A stretch of 64,000 nt of DNA from Flavitalea plasmicola. GTDB taxonomy: Bacteria > Bacteroidota > Bacteroidia > Chitinophagales > Chitinophagaceae. The translations under genes were made by a program, and so were the position numbers. The stretch is from NCBI RefSeq assembly GCF_030546645.1, contig NZ_JAUOTO010000012.1:1-64000 (forward strand), read 5' to 3'. This document shows, one piece after another, positions 1 through 15,430 of this stretch; the first letter of the stretch is position 1; each line of letters begins with the position of its first letter. The notes under the pieces are model-generated. The model was not told the DNA's origin and did no database searches. It saw nothing but the letters and a program-made list of their open reading frames with translations.

Positions 1-905
1 AGCTCCCGGTGACGGTATTCCCCCATCCCCTTGTTCCTGTCCCCACGCTCCTCCACCCAGGGCAATAAGGTCCCCCGTTCCAGCCCCTGCAAATAACCTT
101 CCCAGAACTTCCGCTCCTCCCGTTCATCCCGCCCTCGTATAAACCGGATATAATCTCCATAATTGTCTTCTGCTCCCCCTCCCGCCTCCCGGCCCTCACA
201 CAAACGTTCATAATTATCCATCACCTCTTCCATCAGCACCGGCATCGACCATCCATCCACCAAAATATGATGGATCGACCACACCAGCTGATGACGACCT
301 CCGCCCAGCAGGATCACCGTCACGCGCATCAACGGCGGCCGGTCAAAATCAAACCCCCGTCCATGTTCCTCTTTAATAAATGATTCCACTGCCGGCCGTT
401 GATCCTCCTCCCCAAGCTCACGGTAATCCACCACCTCAAACGGCAGTTCCACATTCCGGTACACGCATTGCACCGGAATGCTCAGTTCCGCATAATGGAA
501 ACCGCTCCGCAAAATGCTGTGCCGTATCAACAGCAGCTCCCAGCTCCGGCGGAACAGATCCACGTCCATCTCTCCCAGCACACAGCTGAACAGTACCGAG
601 TAGGCGCTGGAATGCCCATCGTAAATGGCATGAAATAATATACCTTGTTGTAATCCGCTCAGCGGATGAATGGATGATATATTCTCTGAGCGCTTTTTTG
701 ATTTGAATAGTCCACTATTCAGATAAGCGACAAGCTCTTCCCGGTGGGACCGGATATAGTCGATCAGATCCTGGTTGCTCCTGATCGATTCGAGTTCTTG
801 TGGAGACAGCTTTTTCTTGTTCCCTTTTACAACGATAGCTTCTTCTCTTACTTCCAACGAGAGATTCAGATCGTTCAATCTTTTCAGGAAAGAGGATAGA
901 TCCAT
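1..905 (-). CDS. Non-ribosomal peptide synthetase, N-terminal part (docking + condensation domain); truncated by window edge
   Basis: The reading frame starts at the ATG at 903-905 and runs open to the left edge, so only about 301 residues are visible. Residues 1-60 (MDLSSFLKRLNDLNLSLEV...) look like a TubC-type N-terminal docking domain, which pairs one NRPS/PKS subunit with its upstream partner. A condensation domain follows from about residue 75 (IHPLSGLQQGILFHAIY), with the catalytic signature HHILVDGWS near residue 220, matching the family HHxxxDG motif that forms the peptide bond. A docking domain at the start implies that this subunit receives an intermediate from another synthetase outside the window. 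It lies 271 bp downstream of the carbamoyltransferase gene on the same strand. That gap holds a T-rich tract (minus strand) just after the carbamoyltransferase stop and a 6-bp hairpin near 987-1003, and I see no convincing promoter in it. Product and adenylation specificity cannot be read. Confidence 0.93.
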   Translation of the reverse strand, partial: MDLSSFLKRLNDLNLSLEVREEAIVVKGNKKKLSPQELESIRSNQDLIDYIRSHREELVAYLNSGLFKSKKRSENISSIHPLSGLQQGILFHAIYDGHSSAYSVLFSCVLGEMDVDLFRRSWELLLIRHSILRSGFHYAELSIPVQCVYRNVELPFEVVDYRELGEEDQRPAVESFIKEEHGRGFDFDRPPLMRVTVILLGGGRHQLVWSIHHILVDGWSMPVLMEEVMDNYERLCEGREAGGGAEDNYGDYIRFIRGRDEREERKFWEGYLQGLERGTLLPWVEERGDRNKGMGEYRHRE

Positions 906-1176
906 AGCGACAGTCAAAATATTTATTTCAAGGATGGTCTCGGTCTTAAAAGGCACTAAACTATTGGACAGACGTTTCCTCTGACATTCCTGGGGGTCAG
1001 GAACGCCTGGTCAATAATTTTACAGTCTCAAATAATTACGCTTTGCTTGAATTTTGGAGAGGGTATCGAATTGATCAAATAAACTACTTGCAAGTGGACT
1101 ATAATGAATACTTGTCAAGATAACTAAATCTCATCATAAAAAAAACAAAAAAAATACATAAAATCACGCATGTTTA

Positions 1177-3249
1177 TTATTTCTTAATAATGAAGCGGTC
1201 CATTATTAAATAGTCGATCCTGGAGGTATAGAAGAAATCCAGCGCATCCATCGGTGTCTCCACAATAGGCATCCCACGGCGGTTAAGCGAGGTATTTAAC
1301 AACAGGGATATACCCGTGATCTTCTTGAATTCCGAGATCAGCTTGTAATAGTCGGGGGACAGCCCGGAATGGACCGTCTGGACACGGGAAGTGCCATCGA
1401 CATGTGTAATTGCCTTCAGTTTCTCTTTCCATTCATCCTTCATCCTGTTTACAAGGATCATATAGGGGCTATCCTGGTCTTCCTCGAAATAGATCGTTAC
1501 GTCCTCCTTTAGAACGGAAGGGGCGAAAGGCCTGAAGTCCTCCCGCAGCTTGATCTGCAGGTTAATGAAGTCTTTTATTCCGGGGTTCCTTGGATCAGCA
1601 AGTATGCTGCGGCTGCCCAGCGCCCGCGGGCCGAACTCTGAGCGCCCCTGGTACCATGCCAGGACTTTCCCATCCGCCAGCAGCCTGGCAGACCTTTCAA
1701 TGTATTCATTGAGATAGACGCACTTTACTGTTTGATCGTTTTTTCCATGCAGCTTTTTATCCAGCAGCAACCTGGCCATCCCGGAGAAATTGAAGGCGCT
1801 CGTAAAAAGGGAGGCAAGAGAATAATTGGAAGACCTGATCCTTTCCAGCTTTATGATATCGCTTAAATATTCGGGAGCAATGATGCTGCGGAAAAAGTCG
1901 TCGCCGCTGATCTCGAAGGTCCCGTCCGGCCGGCGGTCGAAACCTTTAAAGCCCTTCACCGTGTCTTTCTCCATCACGATCTGGTAAACCCCATAATCCG
2001 GGATGTTGAACTGCAGGACGAACTCATGGCCCGCTAGCCCGTTTAGAGGAACGTCGTTCACCAGCTGAAAAAAGTGATCGATGTATGCCGCGGTAACCCG
2101 CGGCTCATTGTTGATGACATAGCTGTCCAATGCACCATACAGCATAGCCGTAGGATACACTTTGCCAAAGCAGGTGCTCCCGGTGTGGACGATCCGCTCT
2201 TTTCTAAGCACTTCCAGCCAGCCGTAATACGCGCATCCGATGGCAACCCCATTGTCTCCGGCAGCCGGTGTGACATAGAGATCGGTGACGGGGGTCAGGT
2301 GCCGGATCCTGGCGTTTGCCACTGCATTTAAAGCGACGCCTCCGCTGTAACAGAGCTTTCTGACGCCATTCAGTTCACACCTGCATTGAATGATATATAT
2401 GATGGCTTTCTCTATCTCGTGCTGGACCCACCATGCCACATCAGCATAATATTGAAAGTTGTTCTTGAAACTTTCCAGGCTCCGGGATGGCCTGTCGAAC
2501 TTTTTTAAGGCTTCATAATTGATAAAGACACGCCCATCCTCCAATAAAAAGATCCTGTCGTTATATATACCCCGACGGCCATAGGGAGCCAATCCCATCA
2601 ATTTCCCTACGTCGTTGATATCCCTGAAACAATATTTGCTTGCTGCGGAATAAATACCCCCGATGGAATCCTTCACGGAGGGATGCATGGGAAAGCCTTT
2701 CATTCCGTATCCAAGTACGGAGAACCCTTTATATAAGTTTTGGAAGCCGGCATTGGAATAGCCATAAAAACTGTCCCGTTCAACATACAGGTGCTTATTA
2801 AGCTCCATCTGCTCTTTATCAGGAATAATGGCCCCGTCCAGGTCCATACAGTCGTCATAGGAATTTCCCTTCCCGTCTATCACCAGGATATTGAATTCGT
2901 CGAAGGGACAGGTGCCGATAGCGCTGTATGCATGAGCGAGATGATGTGAAATGGAGACGACGGGAGGGGAGCCTTCATCCACGAAAAGCCGGGGCCCGTA
3001 AAATTCCCGGTTGCCATATTCAAACATGTGCTGCGTAGCGTTCTGCACTACCAGGTCGATATCTCCCAGGGTGATCCCTTCCGCATCCAGGCAATATTCA
3101 ATGGCAAGCGTGTCATTGAAGCCGTCATGCTTTATCCGGGTGATTCTTTCTTTTTCGATGGCGACGCAAATTCTCCCATCTTTCAGCAAACAGGCGGACC
3201 CATCATGCAGCAGGCCGGTGCCAAGAACGTAAGTGTGCTTCTTTCCCAT
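1177..3249 (-). CDS. NodU/TobZ-family carbamoyltransferase with an inserted SCP2-like domain
   Basis: 690 residues, about 100 longer than the usual 560-600. It should transfer a carbamoyl group from carbamoyl phosphate through carbamoyl-AMP to a hydroxyl of a small molecule, as TobZ and NodU do. The Kae1-like half shows HDGS (H15), the metal-binding HHLAH (102-106), VIDG (D125), GGVALNAVAN (303-312) and GDNG (D332). The C-terminal half shows GRSEFGPRALGSRSILADPR (536-554), then FRPFAPSVL and NTSLNRRGMPIV. Between these halves, residues about 381-507 form an extra segment whose pattern resembles a sterol-carrier-protein-2 fold: strands around 410-435, then DGTFEISGDDFFRSII, then IIKLERIRSSNYSLASLF. 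Start ATG at 3249. It lies 13 bp after the SGNH gene and is probably in the same operon. The family call is secure; the SCP2 call rests on my reading of the pattern, and the substrate is unknown. Confidence 0.93.
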   Translation of the reverse strand: MGKKHTYVLGTGLLHDGSACLLKDGRICVAIEKERITRIKHDGFNDTLAIEYCLDAEGITLGDIDLVVQNATQHMFEYGNREFYGPRLFVDEGSPPVVSISHHLAHAYSAIGTCPFDEFNILVIDGKGNSYDDCMDLDGAIIPDKEQMELNKHLYVERDSFYGYSNAGFQNLYKGFSVLGYGMKGFPMHPSVKDSIGGIYSAASKYCFRDINDVGKLMGLAPYGRRGIYNDRIFLLEDGRVFINYEALKKFDRPSRSLESFKNNFQYYADVAWWVQHEIEKAIIYIIQCRCELNGVRKLCYSGGVALNAVANARIRHLTPVTDLYVTPAAGDNGVAIGCAYYGWLEVLRKERIVHTGSTCFGKVYPTAMLYGALDSYVINNEPRVTAAYIDHFFQLVNDVPLNGLAGHEFVLQFNIPDYGVYQIVMEKDTVKGFKGFDRRPDGTFEISGDDFFRSIIAPEYLSDIIKLERIRSSNYSLASLFTSAFNFSGMARLLLDKKLHGKNDQTVKCVYLNEYIERSARLLADGKVLAWYQGRSEFGPRALGSRSILADPRNPGIKDFINLQIKLREDFRPFAPSVLKEDVTIYFEEDQDSPYMILVNRMKDEWKEKLKAITHVDGTSRVQTVHSGLSPDYYKLISEFKKITGISLLLNTSLNRRGMPIVETPMDALDFFYTSRIDYLIMDRFIIKK

Positions 3250-3262
3250 GGATTATAAATAG

Positions 3263-5362
3263 TTATTCCTGTACGGCGGAGATCATTAATGTATGGATCT
3301 CGCCGAAAGTATGGTACAATGAGCCTATCGACCTGTCTAATGATCCGGCGGCGGAAAGACCATTCCGATCTTCGGCTTTTTTCCGGGGCACCCGCGAGCC
3401 TGCCGGCCATTTTATCAGAAGCCTGTTCGCTCCCTTTATCAACCCCGCGGAAGGGAATAACACTTTCTTCGTTTGCCATTTGTTACCTACGTCCATTTCA
3501 TCGATCGGCGCGTCATTCAGCAATAGCCTTGCTTTCCCTCCATTTTCAGTAGCAGGGATCCGCCAGGTGATATCTGCATACACCGGGACATTTCTTTCCA
3601 TGAAGAAAAGGAACTCCGATGTTATGTCATACGCTTTGTAATAACAGCTGCTTGCGCCGGCCACCTTCTGAATAGAGAACATATGGTAAAATGATTCCAA
3701 TAAATTCACCGGTGCATTCTTTACACCGTGCTCCCTGTTCAGCAACACTTCGATCTGACCATGAATGTCGATCCCAACGGTTTGCAATGCAGCGATCATG
3801 GCATGGATGAGCTCATAGTCCAGTGTCTTGGCATTCTCCGCATGCAGCAGGCCCGTACCTTTATTATATTGATCGGCGAGCCCTTCCGCCAGGATTTGCC
3901 CGTAACTTTTACAAAGGGCAGTGGAAGCTTTCCTGCAGGCCAGCGAAGAGAAGAGCGTCATGAACCTTGCGGAGATACGGGAAATCTTCACAGCCTGCAT
4001 ACAATGGTAGTTCAGGATCTCGCGCGGTTGTCCAAACCTGGAATTAAGGGTAGCAGCCAACAAATGTGCCAGGGCGACCAGGTCCGTGCTTAATTCACGG
4101 GCGGATGACGACTTCACATCTGTTTTTTTTCCATCAAACAATGGCAGCAAGACATCGAAGGCGGCGTCCATTGCCAGTTTGATCCCTTCATGATTCAGAT
4201 GGCAATAATCCAGGAAGAGGTCCCGTCCCGGGATCTTGCCTCCAAGATGATCTTTGAATACGGCAGGAAGGTCCACCACATGGAATCCATACAGTTTTGA
4301 CTGTTCAAGAATGGTGCGCCGGCAGGAGGAAAAGCACCTGGGGGTGTGGTTTGTAAGCCGCTTTACTATCGATGTATCCCGGGCGGATTCCAGCAAGTGA
4401 CGGGCTTCCTCGTATTTTTCATTCCTGAGGTGGCATTCGGCCAGGTACTCGTATCCAAGAGGGTTCGTGGGGTCCAGCGCTATCATCTGTTCGGACTCCT
4501 TCTGTGCGTCCGGCAGGCGGCCCGACTGTAAATACCTTTTTGCCCTTTTCCCAGCCGCGATCCATTTGTCCGTATTGTCTTCAGGCAGCCCGGCAACGAT
4601 CTTCTCCAGCGGAGTGCTTTTCCAGGAATCCAGGTTATATTCAGGGATGATGAACAGAACGGGTATGCCATGCCTGGCAGAGAACGAAGCCATGGTGGCC
4701 ATATAGTTCTTGACCAGTTCGGCCAATTTATCGTCCAGCTTTTCTTTCACCTGCATAAGGTCCAGGGAATGCAAGGCATTTGTCAAAGACTGAATTTCAT
4801 ATTCTGAAAAGACAGGTGAATCATACAAGCTGTACGCCCAGTTATTGCCTGCAAAAATAATGATCAGGTCCGGGTCGAGCCTTAAACAGGATTCGCTTAA
4901 CCTCGAAAGTTCTTCCAGTGTAAGGCCGCTTTTCGCCAGGTCTACGACCTCGAAATCGGTAAATCCTTCTACTGCCTGCAAGCGCGAACGTAATTCGATG
5001 GCAGGATTAAAAAAGGGATCGTAAAAATATCCGCGCGCGACGGACTCGCCTAATAACACCACCCTTTTCCCTTTTTTTGGAAATATGACATGCTGATTGG
5101 CCCACAGCCTCCAGTCCGCTGCAAAGCGGGTATCCCGCACGTAGAGATCCATGCCTTCCTGCTGTTTCAAGGACCATATACCTATCCGGTCATATTGGTC
5201 CGGCGGCTCATTATCCTTAAGGACAGGCGTGGGTTCGGGCGCTGCGGCATCGGGGGACGGCCCGTTTATGAGGGATGCAAGCGTATCCAGCTTTACAGCG
5301 CTGGCTTCTCCGCCGGTCACTACCCGGGCAAGTTCTGCTGCCAGTGAATAGGATCTGTTCAT
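3263..5362 (-). CDS. SGNH/GDSL hydrolase-fold protein with internal TPR segment
   Basis: 699 residues without a signal peptide, so probably cytoplasmic. SGNH blocks are visible: GESVARGY (nucleophile S107), a glycine in KSGLTLEEL (about 145), FAGNNWAYS (N173/N174) and DYCHLNHEG (D385 and H388 completing the triad). Between blocks III and V, residues about 265-330 resemble tetratricopeptide helices (DAQKESEQMIALDPTNPLGY and a second helix pair). After the hydrolase there is a helical region (410-560) and a C-terminal beta-rich segment (about 590-665) that may be a sandwich domain. SGNH proteins of this sort often act as acyl-esterases or as O-acyltransferases on polyketides, peptides or glycans. 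It lies between two carbamoyltransferase genes with gaps of 13 and 32 bp, which argues that it modifies the same product. Substrate and direction of reaction are unknown. Confidence 0.85.
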   Translation of the reverse strand: MNRSYSLAAELARVVTGGEASAVKLDTLASLINGPSPDAAAPEPTPVLKDNEPPDQYDRIGIWSLKQQEGMDLYVRDTRFAADWRLWANQHVIFPKKGKRVVLLGESVARGYFYDPFFNPAIELRSRLQAVEGFTDFEVVDLAKSGLTLEELSRLSESCLRLDPDLIIIFAGNNWAYSLYDSPVFSEYEIQSLTNALHSLDLMQVKEKLDDKLAELVKNYMATMASFSARHGIPVLFIIPEYNLDSWKSTPLEKIVAGLPEDNTDKWIAAGKRAKRYLQSGRLPDAQKESEQMIALDPTNPLGYEYLAECHLRNEKYEEARHLLESARDTSIVKRLTNHTPRCFSSCRRTILEQSKLYGFHVVDLPAVFKDHLGGKIPGRDLFLDYCHLNHEGIKLAMDAAFDVLLPLFDGKKTDVKSSSARELSTDLVALAHLLAATLNSRFGQPREILNYHCMQAVKISRISARFMTLFSSLACRKASTALCKSYGQILAEGLADQYNKGTGLLHAENAKTLDYELIHAMIAALQTVGIDIHGQIEVLLNREHGVKNAPVNLLESFYHMFSIQKVAGASSCYYKAYDITSEFLFFMERNVPVYADITWRIPATENGGKARLLLNDAPIDEMDVGNKWQTKKVLFPSAGLIKGANRLLIKWPAGSRVPRKKAEDRNGLSAAGSLDRSIGSLYHTFGEIHTLMISAVQE

Positions 5363-5394
5363 AAGTATAAGGTCTGTACTGCTTTACCAGGTGA

Positions 5395-7161
5395 TTAAAC
5401 AAAAGTGTACACGTCGTGCCTGATACCTGCTCTTTTCTCTTTTTCGATGTCATAATTTTCCAGTATCAGCTTCAGCGCATGAAGTGAGTTTTCTGATCTT
5501 ATTATGACAAATTCGTCCATGACCAGGCAATCGATGTCCGTCTTTATAAAACATTTAAGGGCGTCTTCAGGAGAGCATACGATGGGTTCTCCTTTGACAT
5601 TAAAGGATGTATTCAATAGGATAGGGCACCCTGTTAGCTTTTCAAATTCCCGGATCAATAACGCGAAGGGAAGATTGGTATGTTCATTCACGGTCTGGAC
5701 CCTTGCCGAACCGTCCACATGCGTAATAGCCGGCAGATCGATGGTCGAGGACACCTGGCAGGTCTCCAGCATAAAGGGGGATGGATGATCTAATTGGAAA
5801 TGCTCTGCAACCTTGTCTTCCAGCACTGCGGGAGCGAAGGGCCGGAAACCTTCTCTTTTTTTCACCATCGCATTGATCCTGTCACGCATGGTCGCGTTTC
5901 TGGGATCGGCCAGGATCGATCGCGCTCCCAGCGACCGGGGCCCGAACTCCATCCTCCCCTGGAACCAGCCGATGACAAGCCCTTCCGCCAGCTTGCCTGC
6001 CACCATGCTCAGCATCAGGTCCCTGCTTCCTCTATAGTTATGGTATTGAAGGGAGGTCGACTTTAATAATTGCTCGATCTCGTCGGCGGCAAATTCCGGA
6101 CCAAAGTATACATGGTCAAGTTGCTTTTTCTGCTGCAATGCCCTACCCTCAACGGCATGGATAGCCATTGCCGCGCCGATGGCGCCGCCTGCATCATTGG
6201 AAGCAGGCTGTACAAAAAGCTTTTCAAAAGGGCCGTCCCTCAGGATACGCCCGTTGGCAACGCAGTTTAACGCGACACCGCCGGCCATGCACAGGTTTTT
6301 TTCACCCGTCCTGCGATGAAGATAGCGCGCCTTTTCCAGCAGCATTTCTTCCAGTACTACCTGTAAGCTTTTGGAAAGATCTTTATGGAATGGGGCGATT
6401 ATCGAGTCCGGCCGCCTGGCAGGATGCCCCAGCAATCCCGGCAGCGCATCCGAGAACATTCTTTCGCCGGACAAAAAATCAAAATAACCCATATTCAGCT
6501 TATACTGTCCTTCCGCTTCCGGCTGGAGGAGATCCATGAGTTGTTTTACGTACAATGGTTTCCCATAAGGAGCCAGCCCCATTACCTTGTATTCTCCGTC
6601 ATTGACCCCGAACCCAAGAAAGCTTGTAATGGTGCTATAAAGTAATCCCAAAGAATGCGGAAAATGAACTTCTTCAAACAGGTGAATGGCATTGCCATTG
6701 CCGGCGCCATAGGTAGTGGTTGCCCATTCCCCCACTCCATCCACGGTCAGGATAGCCGAGGTGTCGAATCCGGAGAAAAAAAAGCTGCTTGCGGCATGCG
6801 ACATATGATGTTCCACAAATCTGATGGGCCCCTCATAGCCGAGGACCTCCCGGATCTCCCTTTCCGGCCTGCCCGGGTCGAGCTGAAGCAGAAAAGACGA
6901 GGACACCTCCGGGATGCGGCTCCATATCTGCCGGGATGCTTTTTTTTCCGGATCTTCATAATACGCAATAAGATCTATATCCGTAATGGCCAGCCCCGAT
7001 TGCTTCAGGCAATACAAGAACGCCTGGCAAGGAAGGGAAGCATCTGCCTTGATCCTGGAAAACCTTTCTTCCTGGGCAGCGGCGATCAGGACGCCGTCCC
7101 TGAGGATACAGCAGGCCGAATCGTGATAAAAAGCCGAGATACCGATGATATTTAATCCCAT
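5395..7161 (-). CDS. NodU/TobZ-family carbamoyltransferase
   Basis: 588 residues from the ATG at 7161, the standard family length. An in-frame extension to 7227 would run into the end of the asparagine synthetase gene and adds nothing conserved (GLNIIGISAFYHDSA is the family N-terminus), so it was not used. Visible motifs are H13 in YHDSA, HHMSH (118-122), TVDG (D141), AGGVALNCVANGR (293-304), SNDAGGA (D323) and GRMEFGPRSLGARSILADPR (402-421), followed by FRPFAPAVL and NTSFNVKGEPIV. It has no insert, unlike the neighbour at 1177. The likely reaction is ATP-dependent O-carbamoylation of a natural product or sugar. It sits 25 bp after the asparagine synthetase and 32 bp before the SGNH gene, so co-transcription is likely. 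Confidence 0.94.
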   Translation of the reverse strand: MGLNIIGISAFYHDSACCILRDGVLIAAAQEERFSRIKADASLPCQAFLYCLKQSGLAITDIDLIAYYEDPEKKASRQIWSRIPEVSSSFLLQLDPGRPEREIREVLGYEGPIRFVEHHMSHAASSFFFSGFDTSAILTVDGVGEWATTTYGAGNGNAIHLFEEVHFPHSLGLLYSTITSFLGFGVNDGEYKVMGLAPYGKPLYVKQLMDLLQPEAEGQYKLNMGYFDFLSGERMFSDALPGLLGHPARRPDSIIAPFHKDLSKSLQVVLEEMLLEKARYLHRRTGEKNLCMAGGVALNCVANGRILRDGPFEKLFVQPASNDAGGAIGAAMAIHAVEGRALQQKKQLDHVYFGPEFAADEIEQLLKSTSLQYHNYRGSRDLMLSMVAGKLAEGLVIGWFQGRMEFGPRSLGARSILADPRNATMRDRINAMVKKREGFRPFAPAVLEDKVAEHFQLDHPSPFMLETCQVSSTIDLPAITHVDGSARVQTVNEHTNLPFALLIREFEKLTGCPILLNTSFNVKGEPIVCSPEDALKCFIKTDIDCLVMDEFVIIRSENSLHALKLILENYDIEKEKRAGIRHDVYTFV

Positions 7162-7186
7162 AATGGATATTGGTCTGTGATGGTTC

Positions 7187-9052
7187 TTATGAATTTTTAA
7201 CTTTAAAAAGGTCCTGGAAGATACCAAAGGTCAGCACGATCATCAACAGGTCGGTCTCGAAAGTCTGGTTCAAACTGAAATTCCTGCCGCTGTATATTCT
7301 CTTCAGGTTTTCGATCGTGTCCGGATTAAAGATCCCTTGTCTCTTTATACGGTCATACGACAGCATGTCATTCACCCATTCTAGGTTCCTGCCAAGGAGA
7401 AACTGGCTGCCGGGAGCGACAAAACTGAATTTTTCCCTGTCGATAATGGATGACGGGACATATTTCCTTGCACATTTCTTTAAAATATATTTCTCGGTGA
7501 TGCTGCTGAACTTGATCTTTACCGGTATCGTTTTAATGAATTCGATAAGATCGATGTCGAGGAATGGATATCTAGCCTCCACAGAATTCGCATAGCTCAT
7601 CCTGTCTCCATGATCCGCGCATAAATGATCTGAGACGCGGAACTTGAAATCAAGATAGGATCTGATATGTGAAATATTACGACCGCGGATTTTACGCTTA
7701 TCGACAATCCCTTCCCTGACACTATCCAACAAATGGAAAGTCTCATTCAGCTCATCCGAATACAACGATCTTTTTATACTGCTGAACGCATAATAGTTCT
7801 TTTCATAAAAGAAGCTGTCGTGCCCCCATAAATCACATCGGAGCTCCCGTTCCAGCATCTCGTCGCAGTCATTGTGGCTGTACAGGCTATTGGGTCTCCG
7901 TGCATCCAATCTATACCCGACATAACCTCCGAACAGCTCATCCGCCCCTTCTCCGGAAAGCACCACCTTGATATTATTTTTTTTCACAGCAGCAGAGAGG
8001 GCCAGGCTGCAGGTATTATACGACTCTTTCAATGGAGCTTCGGAATAATACACGGCATCCGCCAGTCTGGACCCGATGTCCCCGGGATCAAAGGTCAATT
8101 CATGGTGGGTTGACCGCAGGGATGGCAGGATAGCATTCCGGTATTTTTTCTCATCGATCGCAACATCACTGAAGGCAATGGAGAAGGATTGACTTACCTG
8201 ATCGGTTAATCCGTTGACCAACCCCGCTATCAACGATGAATCCACTCCCCCGCTGAGGTAATATCCAACAGGCACGTCAGCATTCAGTCTGTAGCTAACG
8301 GAACGGTTCAGCAACTGATCGAGTTCTTCCACATAATAATCTTCCGGCAATGCCGGCCCCGCTTCACTTTCCAAAGGGTATACCAGGTCCCAATATTCTT
8401 TCATGACCAGCCCTCCTTCATCTACCATGATAAAGTGTCCCGGCGGCAGGCTATTGATCTTATCAAACATAGTAGTCGGGCTTACCATGCCTGGAAATGT
8501 AATAATTTGATCCAGTCCTGTCAGATTCAATCTGGGCGTAACTGCAGGATGCGCCAGCAGCGCTTTGATCTCCGAAGCGAAAACAAACACATCATTTTGG
8601 AAAGTATAGAATAAAGGTGCGATGCCTACCTGGTCCCGGGCAATGAAGAGGGCTTTCTTATTCTTATCATAGATGGAGAAGGAAAACTGCCCGTTTATTC
8701 TGTTAAGACAATCTACTCCATAGGTTTCGTATAAATGTAAGATAACTTCTACATCGCATGCCGATCTGAAAACATGTCCCTGCTGCATCAGCTCCCGTTT
8801 CAAATCTACATAGTTATATACTTCGCCGTTGCAGATCAGGACGAGGGACTTGTCTTCGTTGAACATCGGCTGGTTGCCCGTGGTCATGTCTATTATGGCA
8901 AGCCTTTTGAATCCCAATCCAATTGCACCATCAATATAGTATCCGGAGTCGTCAGGCCCCCGGTGATTCAACCGTTCCATCATCCTCAGGAGCAGCTCAT
9001 CCGTGACCTCATATTTATTGTATTTATCAAATATTCCTGTGATCCCACACAT
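7187..9052 (-). CDS. asnB: Asparagine synthase (glutamine-hydrolysing), class-B AsnB type
   Basis: 621 residues from the ATG at 9052. The start was chosen because processing of MCGITGIF exposes Cys2, the nucleophile of class II glutamine amidotransferases; an in-frame extension to 9166 would bury it. The N-terminal glutaminase shows LNHRGPDDSGYY and CNGEVYN, and the C-terminal synthetase shows the PP-loop YLSGGVDSS and SGEGADELFGGY. The enzyme transfers ammonia from glutamine to a beta-carboxyl activated as an adenylate. In secondary-metabolite or polysaccharide loci, AsnB homologues often amidate the product instead of making free asparagine. Its position between an FkbM methyltransferase and two carbamoyltransferases favours such a tailoring role here, by inference. 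A TAnnTTTG promoter element lies about 145 bp upstream, so it may start its own transcript. Confidence 0.93.
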   Translation of the reverse strand: MCGITGIFDKYNKYEVTDELLLRMMERLNHRGPDDSGYYIDGAIGLGFKRLAIIDMTTGNQPMFNEDKSLVLICNGEVYNYVDLKRELMQQGHVFRSACDVEVILHLYETYGVDCLNRINGQFSFSIYDKNKKALFIARDQVGIAPLFYTFQNDVFVFASEIKALLAHPAVTPRLNLTGLDQIITFPGMVSPTTMFDKINSLPPGHFIMVDEGGLVMKEYWDLVYPLESEAGPALPEDYYVEELDQLLNRSVSYRLNADVPVGYYLSGGVDSSLIAGLVNGLTDQVSQSFSIAFSDVAIDEKKYRNAILPSLRSTHHELTFDPGDIGSRLADAVYYSEAPLKESYNTCSLALSAAVKKNNIKVVLSGEGADELFGGYVGYRLDARRPNSLYSHNDCDEMLERELRCDLWGHDSFFYEKNYYAFSSIKRSLYSDELNETFHLLDSVREGIVDKRKIRGRNISHIRSYLDFKFRVSDHLCADHGDRMSYANSVEARYPFLDIDLIEFIKTIPVKIKFSSITEKYILKKCARKYVPSSIIDREKFSFVAPGSQFLLGRNLEWVNDMLSYDRIKRQGIFNPDTIENLKRIYSGRNFSLNQTFETDLLMIVLTFGIFQDLFKVKNS

Positions 9053-9196
9053 GCTACTCCTATTCAGATTATTTTTTTCTGATATATTAAATGCTAACTG
9101 TCGATTATAGATAATGGAAAATACAAAGAATGCAGGCGAGCGTCTTGCAAAACCCCTGCCTGGCACATAGTGCTAATGAATCAGGACCTAACTAAC

Positions 9197-9204
9197 CAAA
9201 TATA
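9197..9204 (-). promoter_or_regulatory. Possible Bacteroidota -7 promoter element upstream of asnB
   Basis: The minus strand reads TATATTTG, an exact TAnnTTTG match, in the AT-rich 180-bp gap between the FkbM and asnB genes. The nearest TTG upstream is only 10 bp away, too close for a standard -33 element, so this is a weak call. Confidence 0.3.
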
Positions 9205-9231
9205 ACTAATTGGACAAGCTTTAAAAAAAAT

Positions 9232-9996
9232 TTATTTCATCCATATCCCTTTTCGTCCCTCCGGGATAAAATAATGATTATGGCTCACCGGGAACACATC
9301 CCCATATATATCCAACGGCCGTAATCTTCCACTCTCCAGGTAGAAAACTTCATACCCCATCGGACGTATCATTTCAAAGAACCGGATCCTTTCCCCCTTA
9401 GCAACCAGCTCCACCAGCAGGATAGGCCGGTGTTTCCTCAACGTCTCCATCATGGAAGAAAACACCTGGATCTCCAAACCCTCCACATCACACTTGATAA
9501 AATCCAATCCTGGCAATTCACTGAACAAGGCATCGCCCGAGGCATTCCTCACTTTCACCGACTCCGCATACACATAAGGTTCCCCCGCCCGCTTGATCCT
9601 CGCATACGCGAATTGCTTATTATTACCCACCCTGGGGATCCCCATTTCCACATAGTCCCCTTCTCCGCCCAGGGCCACCTGCATCAGCTCGACATTATCC
9701 GCTTTCTTGCTCCGCAGCAGGTTCCCCAGCACCTCATTGAACCCGGGTATGGGCTCGATCGCAATGATCTTGCCGGAAGGGCCGGCCAGCCGGCTCATTT
9801 CCAATGTATAATAGCCGAGATGAGCGCCAATGTCCACACAAAAAGCTCCCTTTTCGATAATATCCTTAAGGAAATAAACATCCTGGTAGATCAATCCCAG
9901 TTTGCCCGTGGGATACAGTCGTTGAAAGGTGCCTGCCAGCAAGGATAGGTATCTTTTTTCCCCTAATAGTTTGATCAAGACCTTTTTGATTCCCAT
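9232..9996 (-). CDS. FkbM-family SAM-dependent methyltransferase
   Basis: 254 residues from the ATG at 9996 (MGIKKVLIKLLGEKRYLS). A seven-codon-longer form would need a TTG inside a hairpin. The Rossmann-type SAM site is clear: FCVDIGAHLGYYTLEMSRLAGPSGKIIAIEPIPG, with the acidic residue after IIAI. The later motif FIKCDVEGLE is typical of the FkbM group (FIKIDVEGxE). Members O-methylate polyketides, peptides and sugars, often in polysaccharide or siderophore loci. It probably belongs to the tailoring set with asnB, the SGNH protein and the carbamoyltransferases downstream, although a 180-bp gap follows it. The methyl acceptor cannot be inferred from sequence. Confidence 0.88.
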   Translation of the reverse strand: MGIKKVLIKLLGEKRYLSLLAGTFQRLYPTGKLGLIYQDVYFLKDIIEKGAFCVDIGAHLGYYTLEMSRLAGPSGKIIAIEPIPGFNEVLGNLLRSKKADNVELMQVALGGEGDYVEMGIPRVGNNKQFAYARIKRAGEPYVYAESVKVRNASGDALFSELPGLDFIKCDVEGLEIQVFSSMMETLRKHRPILLVELVAKGERIRFFEMIRPMGYEVFYLESGRLRPLDIYGDVFPVSHNHYFIPEGRKGIWMK

Positions 9997-10006
9997 ACAA
10001 TTTGGT

Positions 10007-10076
10007 TCTGACCGCAAGCTACGAGCTTCCGGCGAAATTTCCCATCCTTCACGCGCTTGCCGGTGCTCCGGTCAGA
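10007..10076. repeat. Interrupted inverted repeat between oxyR and FkbM genes
   Basis: TCTGACCG (10007-10014) is repeated inverted as CGGTCAGA (10069-10076), and just inside them GCAAGC (10014-10019) pairs with GCTTGC (10055-10060). The structure overlaps the oxyR stop codon (10072-10074). Part of it (CCGCAAGCTACGAGCTTC) resembles the AGCT-heptamer repeats found elsewhere in the window, so it may be a decayed copy. It could act as a terminator or mRNA-stabilising hairpin, but has no clear T-run. Confidence 0.5.
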
Positions 10077-11007
10077 TGGGCACCACGTTCTGGTTTTTAT
10101 TCTGCCGCACCTTTTCAGGGATGGATTGAATGATCTCTTCCTTTAACGCCTGTACAAGCCGCTGTTTTACAAAATCCCGGTGAACCACCAGGCTCACCTC
10201 CCTCATGGGAGCAGGGCGTTTGAAATGACGTACGAGCTGCGTCTGCTTTTTGGTCAGGTCCATAGCCGCCAGTTCCGGAAGGATCGTGATGCCGTCATTA
10301 AGTTCCACCATCCGCCGCAGCGTCTCCAGGCTGCCCGCCTCGTAATCGAAATGGCTGCCTTCCTTACTGGCTTTGCGCAGCTCGCAGAGACGAACGATCT
10401 GGCTGCGAAAGCAGTGCCCCTCCTCCAGCAGCCAAAGCTTATTAGGGTCGATGTCCTGGGCCAGCATATACGTCTTTTTATAGGCCGCATTCTTCCGGGA
10501 GACATAGACCAGCAGCTCCTCATAGAACAGCACATGCTCGCGGATGCCATTCTCCTGGAGAGGGGTGACCAAAATGCCCACATCGATGCGCCCTTCCCGG
10601 AGACGGCCTACCAGCGTCTCGGTAGTCATTTCATTCACAACCAGCTTGATCAGTGGGTATTTTGCTGTAAAGCCCTGTACAAATAAAGGCAGCAGGTAAG
10701 GCGCCAGGGTAGGGATGATGCCGATACGCAATTCCCCCGTCAGCACCCCTTTCTTCGCCTGCACGATCTCCTGGATAATATCCTTTTCGGCCAGGATCTT
10801 CCGGGCCTGCTCGATCAGTTCCCGTCCCGCCTCCGTGGGAAGCACCGGCTGTTTGCTTCTGTCGAAAATCTTGACCCCCAGCTCTTCCTCCAGCTTCTGC
10901 ACCTGCATGCTCAAAGTAGGCTGCGTGACAAAACAATTGGCGGCGGCTGTCGCAAAGTGGCGATAGGTGTCGATGGCTACGATATATTCCAGCTGTATGA
11001 ATGTCAT
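10072..11007 (-). CDS. oxyR: LysR-type hydrogen peroxide sensor/regulator OxyR
   Basis: 311 residues. The N-terminal winged helix-turn-helix (residues 1-60, AAANCFVTQPTLSMQVQKLE) is followed by a periplasmic-binding-protein-like sensor domain. The segment GHCFRSQIVRLCEL puts cysteines at residues 199 and 208, the same spacing and numbering as the redox pair C199/C208 of E. coli OxyR. Peroxide sensing by disulfide formation is therefore well supported. Usual OxyR targets are catalase, alkyl hydroperoxide reductase and Dps genes; none of these is in the window. The gene lies between a carbamoyltransferase (76 bp upstream) and the FkbM gene, all on one strand. A tandem OxyR-type operator covers its own start codon, which points to autoregulation. 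Confidence 0.93.
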   Translation of the reverse strand: MTFIQLEYIVAIDTYRHFATAAANCFVTQPTLSMQVQKLEEELGVKIFDRSKQPVLPTEAGRELIEQARKILAEKDIIQEIVQAKKGVLTGELRIGIIPTLAPYLLPLFVQGFTAKYPLIKLVVNEMTTETLVGRLREGRIDVGILVTPLQENGIREHVLFYEELLVYVSRKNAAYKKTYMLAQDIDPNKLWLLEEGHCFRSQIVRLCELRKASKEGSHFDYEAGSLETLRRMVELNDGITILPELAAMDLTKKQTQLVRHFKRPAPMREVSLVVHRDFVKQRLVQALKEEIIQSIPEKVRQNKNQNVVPI

Positions 11008-11020
11008 AGATTAAATCTAT
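10984..11020 (-). promoter_or_regulatory. Tandem OxyR operator over the oxyR start codon
   Basis: The minus strand reads ATAG-N7-CTAT-N7-ATAC-N7-ATAT. This fits the classical OxyR consensus ATAG-N7-CTAT-N7-ATAG-N7-CTAT with two mismatches, both in the second half-site. The first half-site, ATAGATTTAATCTAT (11006-11020), also has the inner T and A of the consensus and lies in the perfect 17-bp palindrome at 11005-11021. The ATG start (11005-11007) is at the edge of this palindrome, so bound OxyR should block its own expression. Confidence 0.7.
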
Positions 11021-11083
11021 GTAAAGTTAAAATTAATCAATCATACCACCCAAACGCGGAGATATCGTGCGCAACTGTGGAAC

Positions 11084-12823
11084 TCATTGCAGGATGTCAG
11101 TAAAATGAACGAACGTACTTTTAACATATAATTTGTTGTCGCTCCATATAAGATTCGCCTTATTCCACTCCATTGCGCTGCGAACGTCCGGGAAAAATCC
11201 ACTGCCATTTAGGTTGGCGCTTGTATTGCACAGCAATGGTATGCCACTTTTTTCAAAATATTTTCTTAACAAACGATAAATAACAGGGTTTTCATTATTG
11301 TTGATCGTTTGAAGTCTTGCAGAACCATCTAAATGACAGATCGCGGGCACTTTTTCTTTCCATGATTTCCTGACAAAATGTTCAAAAAGCATAAATGGAT
11401 CGGGCGAGCCGGGAGAAAAAACCTCGGGCGCATATTCTTCCAGGCAGATAGGTGCGACAGGACGGTACTGCTCGCGACCTTTAATTTCATTAAGCCTTTT
11501 TTTCATGCCTGATGAATGTGCAGGTGAAAGAATGCTTCTGTTGCCTAAGGCACGCGGCCCTAATTCCGCGCGTCCGTTGAGAAATACCACTGGCTCGTTG
11601 TACTTATGAAGGATTTCGGCCAGTTCTTCTATCCGGCAGTCACAGCAAACAAAGTCATTCCTACCTTCTGTTGCATCATCAGTCAGGCCAGACTCATTTA
11701 ATCCGGGCCCGCTGTATACATCCCATTCCAATGACCTAATTCCCTCGCTGCGAAGCATTTCACAGCATGCCGCACCCAGCGCATTGCCTGCATCGTTAGG
11801 AAAGGGGGGTACCCATACGTGTTTTATCAACGGACTATTCCTGATACTATTGTTCCATTTGATATTCAGTGCGCATCCCCCCACCAGGCACAAATTGGAA
11901 GTTAATTCCGGTTGCCGCTTCCACTGCGCCGATAAGTGCTCAAGAAGCAGTTCTTGTAGAAACTCCTGAAAGGTGGTCAGCATGTCGGTATCGGGAAATT
12001 TGTTTTCCCTTGAAAATTGTTTCGCGGCTGTGATAAATTGATTGGTAACTGTATTTATGATCTCCTTGGAAAGCTCTGTCTCATCGAATCCTTGCGTCAA
12101 ATCTGAAAAGATCTTGTGATACTGCTGCAGTATCTGAGCATTTACTTTTCCCAAAGCCATGTATGCCATCGCCTTGCCCGCAATCGATAAACTATTGGGC
12201 ATTTCGGAAAAAGGTTTAAATGCATGGGAAAAGTTTGTATATATGTTGCCGAGCAATGGAAAAAGAGAGCCTAAATTCCGTACCGCATTTTCATTGTAGG
12301 AAAAATAGAACAGCTGAGGCGGCATACCGCCATCCCATACAAGTACCATTGCGTCTTCTCCTTTTTTTGCGAAGGGGCTCGTGCAATATGCCGCAGCAAC
12401 ATGTCCGGCAACATGCAGATAGCTGCTATAGACCAGGCCCTGATCATAAAAGGAAAAATGACAAGGCTCCATGATATTTTCTTCGGAAGTTACATAATGA
12501 CCATAATCCGCAACTTTTTTAGTTGTAATATCGACCTCCTTTCCCAAAAAGTTAAACTTTATGATGGACGCCTCAATGTTGGTGGATTTGGAAAAATTAT
12601 CCAGCTCCCAAATGCTCCAGCCATCGATAACTATTTTGTCAATAGCCTTTAAGCTGTGCCCGTATTCAGATAATATGCTTTCCACCTGATCAATTGTAAT
12701 GTTGAAAGGTGAGTACCGGGGGGAATTGTTTAGCTTCTCCATCTCATATGAAAAAATGAGCCGGCCATTTTCGATTAGCGCTATCGCGGCATCATGAGTT
12801 AGTTTAATACCAAGTATGGTCAT
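11084..12823 (-). CDS. Carbamoyltransferase (third, divergent member)
   Basis: 579 residues. Family motifs are present but diverged: LTHDAAIAL (H10), HVAGH in place of HHxxH with the first and last His kept, VWDGG, GGCALNIKWN, PNDAGNALGA, GRAELGPRALGNRSIL, YRPVAPICLEEY and CNTSANLNGSG. The metal- and ATP-binding residues of the Kae1-like half and the carbamoyl-adenylate half therefore look intact, and activity is likely. The N-terminal half differs clearly from the two other copies (for example, NSPRYSPFNITIDQVESIL), so it probably has another substrate. The coding sequence is visibly richer in A and T than the genes around it, which suggests separate acquisition. It is 76 bp upstream of oxyR on the same strand. 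A TTG-N17-TAATTTG promoter-like sequence lies 37-66 bp upstream. Confidence 0.9.
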   Translation of the reverse strand: MTILGIKLTHDAAIALIENGRLIFSYEMEKLNNSPRYSPFNITIDQVESILSEYGHSLKAIDKIVIDGWSIWELDNFSKSTNIEASIIKFNFLGKEVDITTKKVADYGHYVTSEENIMEPCHFSFYDQGLVYSSYLHVAGHVAAAYCTSPFAKKGEDAMVLVWDGGMPPQLFYFSYNENAVRNLGSLFPLLGNIYTNFSHAFKPFSEMPNSLSIAGKAMAYMALGKVNAQILQQYHKIFSDLTQGFDETELSKEIINTVTNQFITAAKQFSRENKFPDTDMLTTFQEFLQELLLEHLSAQWKRQPELTSNLCLVGGCALNIKWNNSIRNSPLIKHVWVPPFPNDAGNALGAACCEMLRSEGIRSLEWDVYSGPGLNESGLTDDATEGRNDFVCCDCRIEELAEILHKYNEPVVFLNGRAELGPRALGNRSILSPAHSSGMKKRLNEIKGREQYRPVAPICLEEYAPEVFSPGSPDPFMLFEHFVRKSWKEKVPAICHLDGSARLQTINNNENPVIYRLLRKYFEKSGIPLLCNTSANLNGSGFFPDVRSAMEWNKANLIWSDNKLYVKSTFVHFTDILQ

Positions 12824-12859
12824 ATAATTTACAGTATTTCCCTTTCAAGTAAAAATACC

Positions 12860-12889
12860 CAAATTATGTTTCCTTCACCTGTTCAACAA
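12860..12889 (-). promoter_or_regulatory. Possible promoter of the third carbamoyltransferase
   Basis: The minus strand has TTG (12884-12886), 17 bp, then TAATTTG (12860-12866). This is one base short of the Bacteroidota TTG-N17-23-TAnnTTTG pattern and lies 37 bp before the start codon. Confidence 0.35.
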
Positions 12890-13038
12890 GAAAAAATTTT
12901 GAGACACCGGAGCATATCCGCTATTCCCGGATGAATCAATGGTGCGGATGAAGAACAGGGAAGGGCGAACTGATCGCGCCCATCATAAATTATCCCGGGG
13001 TGTCCCTGAGAATAAGTATATTGTATGAACAGCCCCAT

Positions 13039-14493
13039 ATGATAAAAACGCCCGTTCTTGCCCTGCTCCTCCTTTTTGCGCTATGCACTGCCGGCTTTTC
13101 CCAATCCAAAGAGGTGCTGCAAAAGATCCACGAAGTGGAGACCCATCTCGCCGGGTGGGTGCAAACGCAACATGACCACACCTGGACCCTCTCCGAACGC
13201 ATGGCTCATTATCACCTGAAAGGAGTGAGCATCGCCGTTGTCAATGACTATAAGATCGAATGGGCCAAAGGCTATGGATGGGCAGACAGCAGTGAGGGCC
13301 GCCACGTTACCACATCGACGCTTTTCCAGGCAGCCAGCATCAGCAAGTCGCTCAACGCCATGGGTGTCCTCAAGCTCGTGCAGGATGGAAAGTTGAACCT
13401 CCACATGGACGTCAATCGATATCTCAAGCACTGGAAGCTCACCTACAACACCCTGACAAAAGGCAAAAAGATAACGATGGCCCATCTCCTCAGCCATACA
13501 GCCGGTCTTTCCGTACACGGCTTCCCCGGGTACGACATACAAGACAGCATCCCTTCCATCGAACAGATCCTCGACGGACGGCGGCCCGCCAACAGTCCCC
13601 GGGTATATTCTATGTTCGAGCCGGGCCTGCGCTCACAATACTCCGGCGGAGGCATCACGCTCTCTCAGCTGGTGGTGATGAATATCACCGGCCTGCCGTA
13701 TGACCGGTATATGCATGACAGCATCCTGCTACCCCTGGGCATGACCGCCAGCTTCTACACCCAGCCTCCCGGCCCCGGCAAAAGGGCCTTATTGGCCACA
13801 GGATATAAGAACAATGGTGCCGCCATACATGGCAAGTATCATATCTATCCCGAACAGGCGGCCGCCGGCCTCTGGACAAACCCCACTGACCTCTGCCGCT
13901 TTATCATCGCCTCCCAGCTATCCCTGGAAGGAAAGCAAGGCGGCGTCCTGTCACCAGCCATGACAAGGACAGGGCTCACACCTTATATCGACAGCAATGC
14001 AGCACTGGGCGTATTCATCCAGCAAAGAGGGCCCGGCAAATATTTCTCGCACGGCGGCGCCAACGAAGGTTTCCGGTCGCAATATTTTGGGAGCCTCCAT
14101 GGCGGAAAGGGCGTAGTGGTGATGGTGAATTCAGATAATGGCGCCATCATGGATGAGATCATCAACAGCGTCGCCACTGTATACAAATGGGAAGGCTTCT
14201 ATGCGCCCGTGGTTAAAAAAGAGATTGACGCGCCGGCTGCTTTGGAAGAATACGCGGGCCGGTATATCGTCGGGGGAGACACGGTTCACATCATACAACG
14301 GGATGGCAGATTATTCCTCGACGTGCGCTTCGATCAGTGGCAGCTTCATTTCACTTCGCCGGACGATTTCTTTTTATACGACGACCACAGCGATCTTCAG
14401 TTCATACGCGACAATGGAAGGATCGTCGGCCTCCTGATCGATCATAAGCAGAGGGCGAAAAAGATCACAGCCATCCCCGTTAATAATAAGTGA
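13039..14493 (+). CDS. Secreted serine hydrolase, beta-lactamase/class C PBP-like family
   Basis: 484 residues from the ATG at 13039, chosen because it begins a Sec signal peptide (MIKTPVLALLLLFALCTAGFSQ); an ATG 13 codons earlier would spoil it. The catalytic SxxK motif is seen in AASISKSLNAMG, the tyrosine motif as YSGG (usual YxN, so variant), and HGGANEG gives the third active-site element (K/H-T/S/G-G). The fold matches serine beta-lactamases, D-alanyl-D-alanine carboxypeptidases and esterases of this group. A C-terminal lipocalin-like beta domain of about 90 residues follows (LEEYAGRYIVGGDTVHIIQ). It probably acts in the periplasm. It ends 14 bp inside the convergent lipoprotein gene. 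Hydrolysis of a peptide or ester is likely; resistance to beta-lactams cannot be claimed. Confidence 0.88.
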   Translation: MIKTPVLALLLLFALCTAGFSQSKEVLQKIHEVETHLAGWVQTQHDHTWTLSERMAHYHLKGVSIAVVNDYKIEWAKGYGWADSSEGRHVTTSTLFQAASISKSLNAMGVLKLVQDGKLNLHMDVNRYLKHWKLTYNTLTKGKKITMAHLLSHTAGLSVHGFPGYDIQDSIPSIEQILDGRRPANSPRVYSMFEPGLRSQYSGGGITLSQLVVMNITGLPYDRYMHDSILLPLGMTASFYTQPPGPGKRALLATGYKNNGAAIHGKYHIYPEQAAAGLWTNPTDLCRFIIASQLSLEGKQGGVLSPAMTRTGLTPYIDSNAALGVFIQQRGPGKYFSHGGANEGFRSQYFGSLHGGKGVVVMVNSDNGAIMDEIINSVATVYKWEGFYAPVVKKEIDAPAALEEYAGRYIVGGDTVHIIQRDGRLFLDVRFDQWQLHFTSPDDFFLYDDHSDLQFIRDNGRIVGLLIDHKQRAKKITAIPVNNK

Positions 14494-15310: not shown

Positions 15311-15349
15311 GATCAGGATTGATAAAGTTTTATAGTTTTTTTTCGTGCT

Positions 15350-15380
15350 CAAAAATATACAATCGGATCGACATACGCAA
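15350..15380 (-). promoter_or_regulatory. Promoter of the lipoprotein gene
   Basis: The minus strand has TTG (15378-15380), a 20-bp spacer, then TATTTTTG (15350-15357), an exact TAnnTTTG. It lies 40 bp before the ATG at 15310. Confidence 0.55.
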
Positions 15381-15402
15381 TCCGTCTGCAGGCTTAAAAT
15401 AC

Positions 15403-15430
15403 AAATAGCCCGGCGTTACCCGGGCCATTT
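15403..15430 (-). terminator. Terminator downstream of the OmpA-like gene
   Basis: AAATGGCCCGG pairs with CCGGGCTATTT around the loop GTAACG on the minus strand, with one mismatch in the stem. It is followed by a T-rich stretch (GTATTTTAAG), and the hairpin begins 25 bp after the OmpA-like stop codon. Confidence 0.6.

Follow-up and report, generated by a model that had tools for sequence, protein, structure and literature searches.

In the genome of the Chitinophagaceae bacterium Flavitalea plasmicola, we found a row of minus-strand tailoring genes next to the start of a nonribosomal peptide synthetase (NRPS) gene. The core of this row, consisting of an AsnB-type amidotransferase, a carbamoyltransferase (CT), and an SGNH/TPR protein, is a conserved and portable module that recurs in distant bacteria. 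On balance, we favor reading the row as the tailoring operon at the edge of a probably large NRPS cluster; the AsnB-CT-SGNH/TPR core would modify a hydroxyl and a carboxylate of the peptide, and two further CTs would act elsewhere.

Gene content of the locus

The window, that is, the whole stretch of DNA analyzed, comprises the first 64,000 bases (C3:1-64000) of a 183,155-base contig, C3, with window base 1 at the contig start. Open reading frames (ORFs) together with Pfam and NCBIfam matches place three full CTs, an SGNH/TPR protein, an AsnB-type enzyme, an FkbM-family methyltransferase, a LysR-type regulator, and an NRPS start on the minus strand within positions 1 to 12823. The first-pass annotation had named these genes on one strand, apart from the regulator, and all of them are present in the order it gave; the LysR gene is an addition to its list. 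Its view of the row as tailoring genes of an NRPS cluster is supported; a condensation-domain start lies at the contig end, where the reading frame is open.

The FkbM-family methyltransferase P0006 (9232 to 9996; ORF 9232 to 10017) matches PF05050 (5.9e-16) and TIGR01444 (3.6e-20). For the LysR-type protein P0007 (10072 to 11007), the best NCBIfam model is OxyR (PRK11151), with 228.5 bits against a cutoff of 329. It is the sole OxyR-like gene of the genome at an E value of ≤1e-30, matching only itself, and is possibly a housekeeping gene caught within the row.

Three carbamoyltransferases

Both PF02543 and PF16861 scored above the cutoff in P0002, P0004, and P0008, and five of the six PF02543 matches in the genome lie inside this 13 kb, the sixth being a 24.2-bit fragment on contig C13. 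The columns of H35, D36, H140, H144, D163, and D345 and a GRxExGPRxLGxRSI block are invariant in all six aligned CTs, these three included, and we take the conserved His and Asp columns to be the catalytic ones. By domains and residues, the three proteins are predicted to be TobZ/NodU-type O-carbamoyltransferases, which would transfer carbamoyl to a hydroxyl. Identity to P0004 is 36% for P0002 and 29% for P0008.

P0004 (5395 to 7161, the aligned and likely start within an ORF of 5395 to 7227; PF02543, 2.6e-74) is 60 to 66% identical to three relatives that are likewise paired with an SGNH protein. In the PDB it matches decarbamoylnovobiocin carbamoyltransferase (9s2t) over residues 32 to 579 (1.8e-105), and GdmN and TobZ also match. 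P0008 (11084 to 12823; PF02543, 8.9e-63) matches the NodU model NF041651 over its full length with 584.4 bits, which is below the equivalog cutoff of 1000. P0008-type CTs at an E value of ≤1e-90 occur in 1 of 395 Bacteroidota genomes, namely, its own, and in the CT tree P0008 groups with the second CT of a surveyed locus, L062, with a support of 100.

P0002 (690 amino acids, 1177 to 3249; PF16861, 3.9e-69; PF02543, 5.5e-37) is of the TobZ type and has an insert of about 110 residues, within about residues 350 to 515, between its N- and C-terminal parts. The insert region matched only its own genome in both the family sample (1 of 344 genomes) and the phylum sample (1 of 395), had no Pfam match at an E value of ≤10, and had a single PDB match with an E value of 0.19; a Metabacillus CT matches P0002 without such an insert. 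A resemblance to an SCP2-type lipid-carrier domain was seen by eye only, without tool support, and is not claimed here.

By sequence, P0002 and P0008 are assigned to lineages other than that of P0004, an insert-bearing type and a NodU-type. Since the three CTs come from three separate lineages, three different jobs are a fair reading, and to this extent the earlier suggestion of CTs with specialized steps is supported.

The SGNH/TPR protein and the AsnB-type amidotransferase

The SGNH family is defined by the Ser of block I, the Gly and Asn of block III, and the Asp-x-x-His of block V. All of these are present in P0003 (699 amino acids, 3263 to 5362), as GES, GNN, and DxxH, and an alignment of P0003 with 47 relatives (48 sequences) shows no variation at E106, S107, G172, N174, D385, and H388. 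Within the protein, TPR separates the SGNH blocks; a helical region follows, and the C-terminal part looks by eye like a beta-sandwich. Its TPR and Lipase_GDSL_2 matches are weak, the latter with 22.9 bits against a curated Pfam cutoff of 32.9, a score threshold rather than a structural feature. No signal peptide was seen by eye.

The AsnB-type protein P0005 (7187 to 9052; TIGR01536, 2.2e-138) has its start, reading MCG, at 9052 in an ORF that extends to 9166. It is 42.6 to 53% identical to six AsnBs that lie beside a CT-SGNH pair, in three Chitinophaga and in Agaribacillus, Aminicenantes, and Streptomyces, and about 30% identical to three other AsnBs of its own genome. The seven pair-adjacent AsnBs form one clade with a support of 100/99, in a tree of ten rows that includes three near-copies and has three genes of one genome as the outgroup. 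This clade occurs in NRPS loci of both Chitinophaga and Streptomyces; in Streptomyces sp. NBC_01431, AsnB, CT, and SGNH stand in the same order and adjoin an NRPS. The three genes are also found together in Chitinophaga filiformis and C. ginsengisoli.

Distribution of the module

Among 62 SGNH/TPR loci from many phyla, tblastn found a same-strand CT upstream of the SGNH/TPR gene in 54; measured between the matched segments, the distance is no more than 600 bases in 51 of these. The eight loci without a CT are L073, L076, and L104, which begin less than 1.4 kb from a contig end; L111, L114, and L115, which are weak SGNH matches; and L071 and L075, whose MAGs also contain L072 (with a CT) and L073. 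The CT is 1.5 to 2.7 kb from the SGNH/TPR gene in L085, L090, and L098, and that of L110 is only 26% identical. The set includes near-copies (L058/L060/L092 and L063/L064) and several loci per MAG (L071/L072 and L073/L075), and the locus counts are therefore not independent events.

An NRPS was found in the fetched DNA (about 10 kb) of 26 of the 62 loci. In Bacteroidota the fraction was 16 of 21, with CmlA, a PPTase, and a type II thioesterase in three more. The first-pass annotation had held that conservation of the tailoring genes without any NRPS would speak against its reading; this applies in part, as the other 36 loci had no NRPS match in the DNA fetched, among them loci adjoining ATP-grasp genes in Burkholderiales. 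The CT-SGNH pair is therefore not NRPS specific.

In the CT tree, a single branch with a support of 86 separates the 53 paired CTs from the comparison rows, which are 4 second CTs and 16 genus CTs whose 1.5-kb flanks lack a partner. The tree comes from a quick search and has four long end branches, two of which are paired rows, and the paired set was selected by the presence of SGNH/TPR and two exact peptide motifs. L091 and L106 were dropped for length (2 of 72 CT frames), two of the 19 genus loci (L018 and L021) had no frame long enough, and L017 and L084 are the same gene of one genome. Distances between CTs correlate with those between their SGNH partners (r = 0.61, 37 pairs; none of 2,000 shuffles as high), a correlation that may partly follow species descent. 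When CTs were taken as the starting point, a full-strength SGNH/TPR partner was found in 2 of the 30 P0004-like CT loci inspected in the phylum sample. These two are the CTs most similar to P0004 (itself and one 62% identical), and those 47 to 53% identical have no partner.

A CmlA-type beta-hydroxylase lies near the pair in L061 to L064, L078, L081, L082, and G116, and could make the acceptor hydroxyl on a carrier-bound residue; no CmlA was found on contig C3. In L062, CmlA, a P0008-type CT, a P0004-type CT, and SGNH/TPR stand next to an NRPS piece. Among the matches listed for open-license PMC papers, as excerpted, we found no description of the SGNH/TPR-CT pair.

Comparison with known systems

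A CT is ordinarily interpreted as an enzyme that decorates a product on its own. TobZ, GdmN, and NovN, O-carbamoyltransferases of the same family as P0004, act alone, on sugars or macrolactams, and we know of no SGNH/TPR partner for them. Nor, to our knowledge, does 4-formylaminooxyvinylglycine (FVG) carry a carbamoyl group. As its biosynthesis requires both a CT and a lipase/esterase according to a published report (PMC8067088), the multiply carbamoylated product suggested by the first-pass annotation is not established.

The gvg and gvg-like clusters of Pseudomonas fluorescens WH6 and Pantoea PNP-1 (PMC8067088, PMC4010436, PMC8064604) resemble the module in that a NodU-family CT (GvgF, Pnp1D) and an SGNH/esterase (GvgA, Pnp1B) serve one pathway, and loss of either impairs activity. 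Unlike P0003, which has TPR, Pnp1B is short (972 nt), with no TPR mentioned in the excerpts; these also give no NRPS or AsnB, add gvgB and gvgC to the core, and describe a single amino acid as the product. Compared by description with the gvg core (gvgA, gvgB, gvgC, gvgF), our locus has the CT and the SGNH protein and nothing recognizably gvgB- or gvgC-like.

Across at least 98% of its length, P0008 shares about 43 to 45% identity with annotated rhizobial NodU, as judged from the best 12 of 57 records. It differs from NodU in its setting, a gene row of a Bacteroidota genome that includes an NRPS, besides its score under the equivalog cutoff, and no further nodulation genes were recognized among the window proteins scanned. 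The chitinopeptin-type NRPS clusters of Chitinophaga make Bacteroidota peptides with beta-hydroxylated residues, and sbnA/sbnB are reported as common (PMC9248904); the word carbamoyl, however, is absent from the main text of that paper. PppH of the pseudovibriamide pathway is an SGNH-like NRPS-PKS accessory protein required for products PB and PC, but no CT is named among the accessory genes in the excerpted text, which assigns no function to its partners PppI and PppJ (PMC11796379).

Proposed pathway and alternative readings

The observations concern which genes the locus contains, which residues are conserved, which genes co-occur, and how they fall into clades; the reaction, substrate, and product that follow are predictions. 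By analogy with the TobZ family, P0004 would activate carbamoyl phosphate as a carbamoyl-adenylate and pass the carbamoyl on to a hydroxyl, either of the peptide or of a residue bound to a carrier. P0003 would be cytoplasmic and act on, or together with, that carbamoyl-bearing group, perhaps docking through its TPR insert, and P0005 would amidate a carboxylate of the same product. P0008 and P0002 probably act on acceptors other than that of P0004.

The carbamoyl could also be transient, which we regard as possible rather than probable. Here the CT would turn the hydroxyl into a carbamate leaving group or nitrogen carrier that SGNH/TPR removes, displaces, or moves, and the final peptide would be free of carbamoyl; it might instead contain, for example, a dehydro-residue, a ring structure, or an N-O group. 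FVG, too, is not known to carry a carbamoyl. For simple decoration, it is odd that a hydrolase accompanies one CT clade almost without exception. In FVG biosynthesis, knockouts of gvgF (CT) and gvgA (lipase/esterase) are each reported to lose activity (PMC8067088), and in PNP-1, disruption of either the SGNH gene pnp1B or the CT gene pnp1D by transposon insertion is reported to impair antibiotic production and/or secretion (PMC4010436). However, FVG also requires gvgC (PMC8067088), with nothing similar recognized at this locus, and a short SGNH protein that neighbors a CT in Pantoea sp. At-9b has no match to the P0003 profile at an E value of ≤10. With this, and with GvgA and pnp1B compared by description, the likeness is one of plan and not of demonstrated descent. 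More broadly, and as a tentative idea, the CT and SGNH/TPR may be halves of one enzyme system across many phyla. The carbamoyl ester would be an intermediate only, on which SGNH/TPR would carry out an undescribed step, whether a relay to a different hydroxyl, a displacement, or an elimination. The peptides would be free or bound to a carrier, AsnB would often take part, and NRPS, ATP-grasp, and FVG-type pathways would be linked by this shared two-step logic.

It is somewhat doubtful, though compatible with our preferred reading of a tailoring operon, that the genes serving the NRPS are limited to the AsnB-CT-SGNH core and P0002, with P0008 and the OxyR-like gene forming a separate unit, which would leave two CTs rather than three. 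P0008 lies beyond P0007, the possible housekeeping gene; yet in L062 a P0008 relative directly adjoins the CT-SGNH pair, with CmlA and an NRPS piece in the locus, and such CTs are otherwise rare, as noted above. That the row is a surface glycan or glycolipid locus next to an NRPS by chance is very unlikely. NodU carbamoylates a sugar in Nod factors, FkbM and AsnB are found in glycan loci, and 28 of the 30 best P0004-like CT loci inspected had no full-strength SGNH/TPR partner. Among the nine window proteins scanned with Pfam and NCBIfam, however, no glycosyltransferase or polysaccharide export gene was recognized, and the NRPS-related genes of the Bacteroidota loci and the NRPS loci of the AsnB clade also speak against it.

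A CT clade that nearly always occurs with one SGNH/TPR protein of conserved catalytic residues, joined in seven sampled cases by members of a single AsnB clade, marks a putative biosynthetic step; its loci are of NRPS, ATP-grasp, and unassigned kinds and come from many phyla. Judged from sequence, the recurring trio points to a shared chemistry. The module offers a genome-mining handle for a peptide class, and the reason for the joint requirement of a CT and an esterase in FVG-type pathways becomes testable in other hosts.

NRPS genes at contig ends

The NRPS gene (1 to 905, minus strand; ORF 3 to 956, likely start at 905) is incomplete because contig C3 ends at window base 1, an assembly break. 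The piece covers the first ~300 codons and matches the condensation domain PF00668 (1.7e-41) over model positions 4 to 221 of 456. The segment ahead of this half domain is possibly a TubC-like docking segment, TubC_N matching at an E value of 0.08 only, below the cutoff. NRPS genes also terminate four other contigs of the genome (C5, C6, C7, and the left end of C11), and comparison of contig ends found no overlap of C3 with any of them. C11 was considered as the continuation of the C3 gene and rejected, the 81% identity being to an internal C11 stretch, that is, to a paralogous module and not a join. As a separate observation, the left ends of C5 and C11 have a terminal repeat in common.

Locus layout and the three carbamoyltransferases

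The gene content proposed in the first-pass annotation, three carbamoyltransferases with an SGNH protein, an AsnB and an FkbM methyltransferase on one strand within 13 kb beside an NRPS, was borne out on the minus strand of 1 to 12823. The window covers bases 1 to 64000 of contig C3 (183,155 bases), in a genome of 8.73 Mb and 19 contigs. Along transcription, the order is carbamoyltransferase P0008, LysR protein P0007, FkbM protein P0006, AsnB P0005, carbamoyltransferase P0004, SGNH/TPR protein P0003, carbamoyltransferase P0002, and the NRPS gene, which runs off the contig with its reading frame still open. To the right lies a beta-lactamase-family gene on the opposite strand, followed by genes judged unrelated by eye and, from about 30 kb, a row of cell-division and cell-wall genes, and we therefore place the right border near 12.8 to 13 kb. 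No Rfam family matched at gathering scores in 1 to 20000. P0007 (10072 to 11007, between P0008 and the FkbM gene) is the only OxyR-like regulator in the genome at an E value of ≤1e-30.

The locus is a variant of the carbamoyltransferase-tailored NRPS cluster, a kind already known. What makes it worth pursuing is its module of AsnB, carbamoyltransferase, and SGNH/TPR protein, together with the unusual company of a NodU-type and an insert-bearing carbamoyltransferase. Each of the three carbamoyltransferases has both Pfam domains of the family, and aligning six carbamoyltransferases showed no variation in the His, Asp, and GPR columns. P0002 and P0008 share 36% and 29% identity with P0004, respectively. 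A search of the whole genome for the family gave six matches, five of them inside this 13 kb. P0008 is a full-length NodU relative, scoring 584 bits against the NodU model, under the model cutoff, and sharing about 43 to 45% identity across at least 98% of its length with annotated rhizobial NodU proteins (best 12 of 57 records); in a sample of 395 genomes of the phylum, it had matches at an E value of ≤1e-90 only in its own genome. In P0002, an insert separates the two parts of the protein. Searches with the insert region (1705 to 2202) matched only P0002 itself among 344 genomes of the family and 395 of the phylum, and gave no Pfam model and no credible PDB match.

Distribution of the carbamoyltransferase-SGNH/TPR pair

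Relatives of P0003 are rare in the family, occurring in 10 of 294 genomes; in 4 of these, our own included, the match spans most of the length. Scanning GTDB genomes with two motifs drawn from five sequences yielded 62 SGNH/TPR loci, in Bacteroidota (21), Acidobacteriota (15), Pseudomonadota (12), and seven other phyla (11), with three unassigned. By tblastn, a carbamoyltransferase precedes the SGNH/TPR gene in the same orientation in 54 of the 62, and in 51 of these the matched segments lie within 600 bases of each other. The SGNH residues are invariant across 48 aligned SGNH/TPR proteins. Among 72,556 plasmid records, P0003 matched one, from Streptomyces sp. NBC_01431.

P0004-like carbamoyltransferases (E value of ≤1e-100) occur in 145 of 395 phylum genomes. 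Thirty such loci were fetched; a full-strength SGNH/TPR partner was present in two (our own and one whose carbamoyltransferase is 62% identical), weak SGNH-like matches lay nearby in two (L132 and L148), and the flanks of the other 26 held no partner. In a tree of 73 carbamoyltransferases, built with a quick method and having four long end branches, the 53 paired enzymes form one side of a single branch with support of 86; L017, a carbamoyltransferase of the genus with a partner, was counted among them. The other side holds 16 carbamoyltransferases of the genus without a partner in 1.5-kb flanks and four second carbamoyltransferases. Distances between the carbamoyltransferases correlate with those between the SGNH proteins (r of 0.61 over 37 loci, a value reached in 0 of 2,000 shuffles).

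Second carbamoyltransferases were found in two other loci, L062 (P0008-type plus P0004-type) and L070 (a 668-residue enzyme after the SGNH gene). Two tandem SGNH/TPR copies follow one carbamoyltransferase in L055, L065, L068, L072, L077, and the genome G116 (L042/L043), where both copies lie in a single 1,386-residue open frame.

Genes beside the pair

NRPS matches were present in the fetched DNA of 26 of the 62 loci, including 16 of the 21 from Bacteroidota, one of which (L104) is cut before any carbamoyltransferase. Three further Bacteroidota loci (L061, L063, and L064) show CmlA, PPTase, and type II thioesterase genes, and the fetched DNA of two (L055 and L084) shows neither NRPS nor this set. 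CmlA lies near the pair in L061 to L064, L078, L081, L082, and G116. In four Burkholderiales loci (L085, L087, L089, and L090), the pair sits in rows with ATP-grasp genes rather than NRPS genes, with only the end of one such gene visible in L087. At L099:6406-7971, the gene immediately preceding the pair has a start that by eye resembles a flavin-dependent tryptophan halogenase.

AsnB adjoins the pair in L056, L058, L060, L092, L067, and Streptomyces sp. NBC_01431. In a tree of ten rows, three of them near-copies, these AsnBs cluster with P0005 (support of 100/99), and three other AsnBs from our genome fall outside the group. As the fetched stretches of 57 of the 62 loci contain no P0005-like AsnB, we regard it as an optional third member. 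The order AsnB-carbamoyltransferase-SGNH is common to the window and Streptomyces sp. NBC_01431, where the module is bordered by genes for NRPS, lysine 2,3-aminomutase, and ATP-grasp proteins; in Chitinophaga and Agaribacillus, AsnB is placed after the SGNH gene.

Proposed function and parallels

AsnB-family enzymes form amides with glutamine-derived ammonia, and the carbamoyltransferase family forms a carbamoyl-adenylate and passes the carbamoyl to a hydroxyl. From these families we infer the whole scheme: P0005 would form an amide with ammonia from glutamine, P0004 would make carbamoyl-adenylate and place the carbamoyl on a hydroxyl, which in several relatives could come from the CmlA enzyme, and the SGNH/TPR protein would act on or with the carbamoyl-bearing group. 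This protein is probably cytoplasmic, since no signal peptide was seen by eye.

The nearest experimental parallels to the pair are 4-formylaminooxyvinylglycine (FVG) and the Pantoea antibiotic PNP-1. To our knowledge, the FVG structure has no carbamoyl, and a carbamoyl therefore need not stay in a product. The earlier interpretation is partly supported: a carbamoyltransferase-tailored NRPS cluster with three different carbamoyltransferases is a fair reading, but multiple carbamoylation of the product does not follow. Published reports describe activity impaired by loss of the carbamoyltransferase or the SGNH/esterase protein for both FVG (PMC8067088) and PNP-1 (PMC4010436), and many genera are reported to carry gvg-like clusters (PMC8064604). 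A plasmid of Pantoea sp. At-9b carries a row of PhyH dioxygenase, carbamoyltransferase, short SGNH/GDSL protein, ATP-grasp, and biotin carboxylase genes (L158:7196-13719). Its plan is similar to that of the window, but the SGNH protein is different, and the short protein gave no match to the P0003 profile.

NRPS genes elsewhere in the genome

The genome has 61 condensation-domain matches, with C18 (150 to 215 kb) among the other places. NRPS genes lie on C5 (42.6 kb), C6 (42.5 kb), C7 (14.7 kb), and the left end of C11, each of which ends within an NRPS gene; no overlap of C3 with the ends of these four contigs was found. Together they make up about 114 kb of contig sequence with NRPS/PKS genes. 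CmlA-type beta-hydroxylases and type II thioesterases are encoded on both C6 and C7, and an ABC-transporter-like gene is on C6. The C11 NRPS lies between two enzyme genes, one of the PALP family and the other ornithine-cyclodeaminase-like (L054:571-1518 and 14045-15007). We interpret these as an sbnA/sbnB-type pair that would supply diaminopropionate; such pairs are reported to be abundant among the clusters of Bacteroidetes (PMC9248904). Amid the NRPS genes, C6 also encodes a starch-synthase-type glycosyltransferase and an alpha-amylase-family protein (L051:16287-19811, equal to G000:C6:36287-39811), and C7 encodes a NusG-like protein, a radical SAM/SPASM protein, and a family-10 fucosyltransferase (L053:4958-9271).
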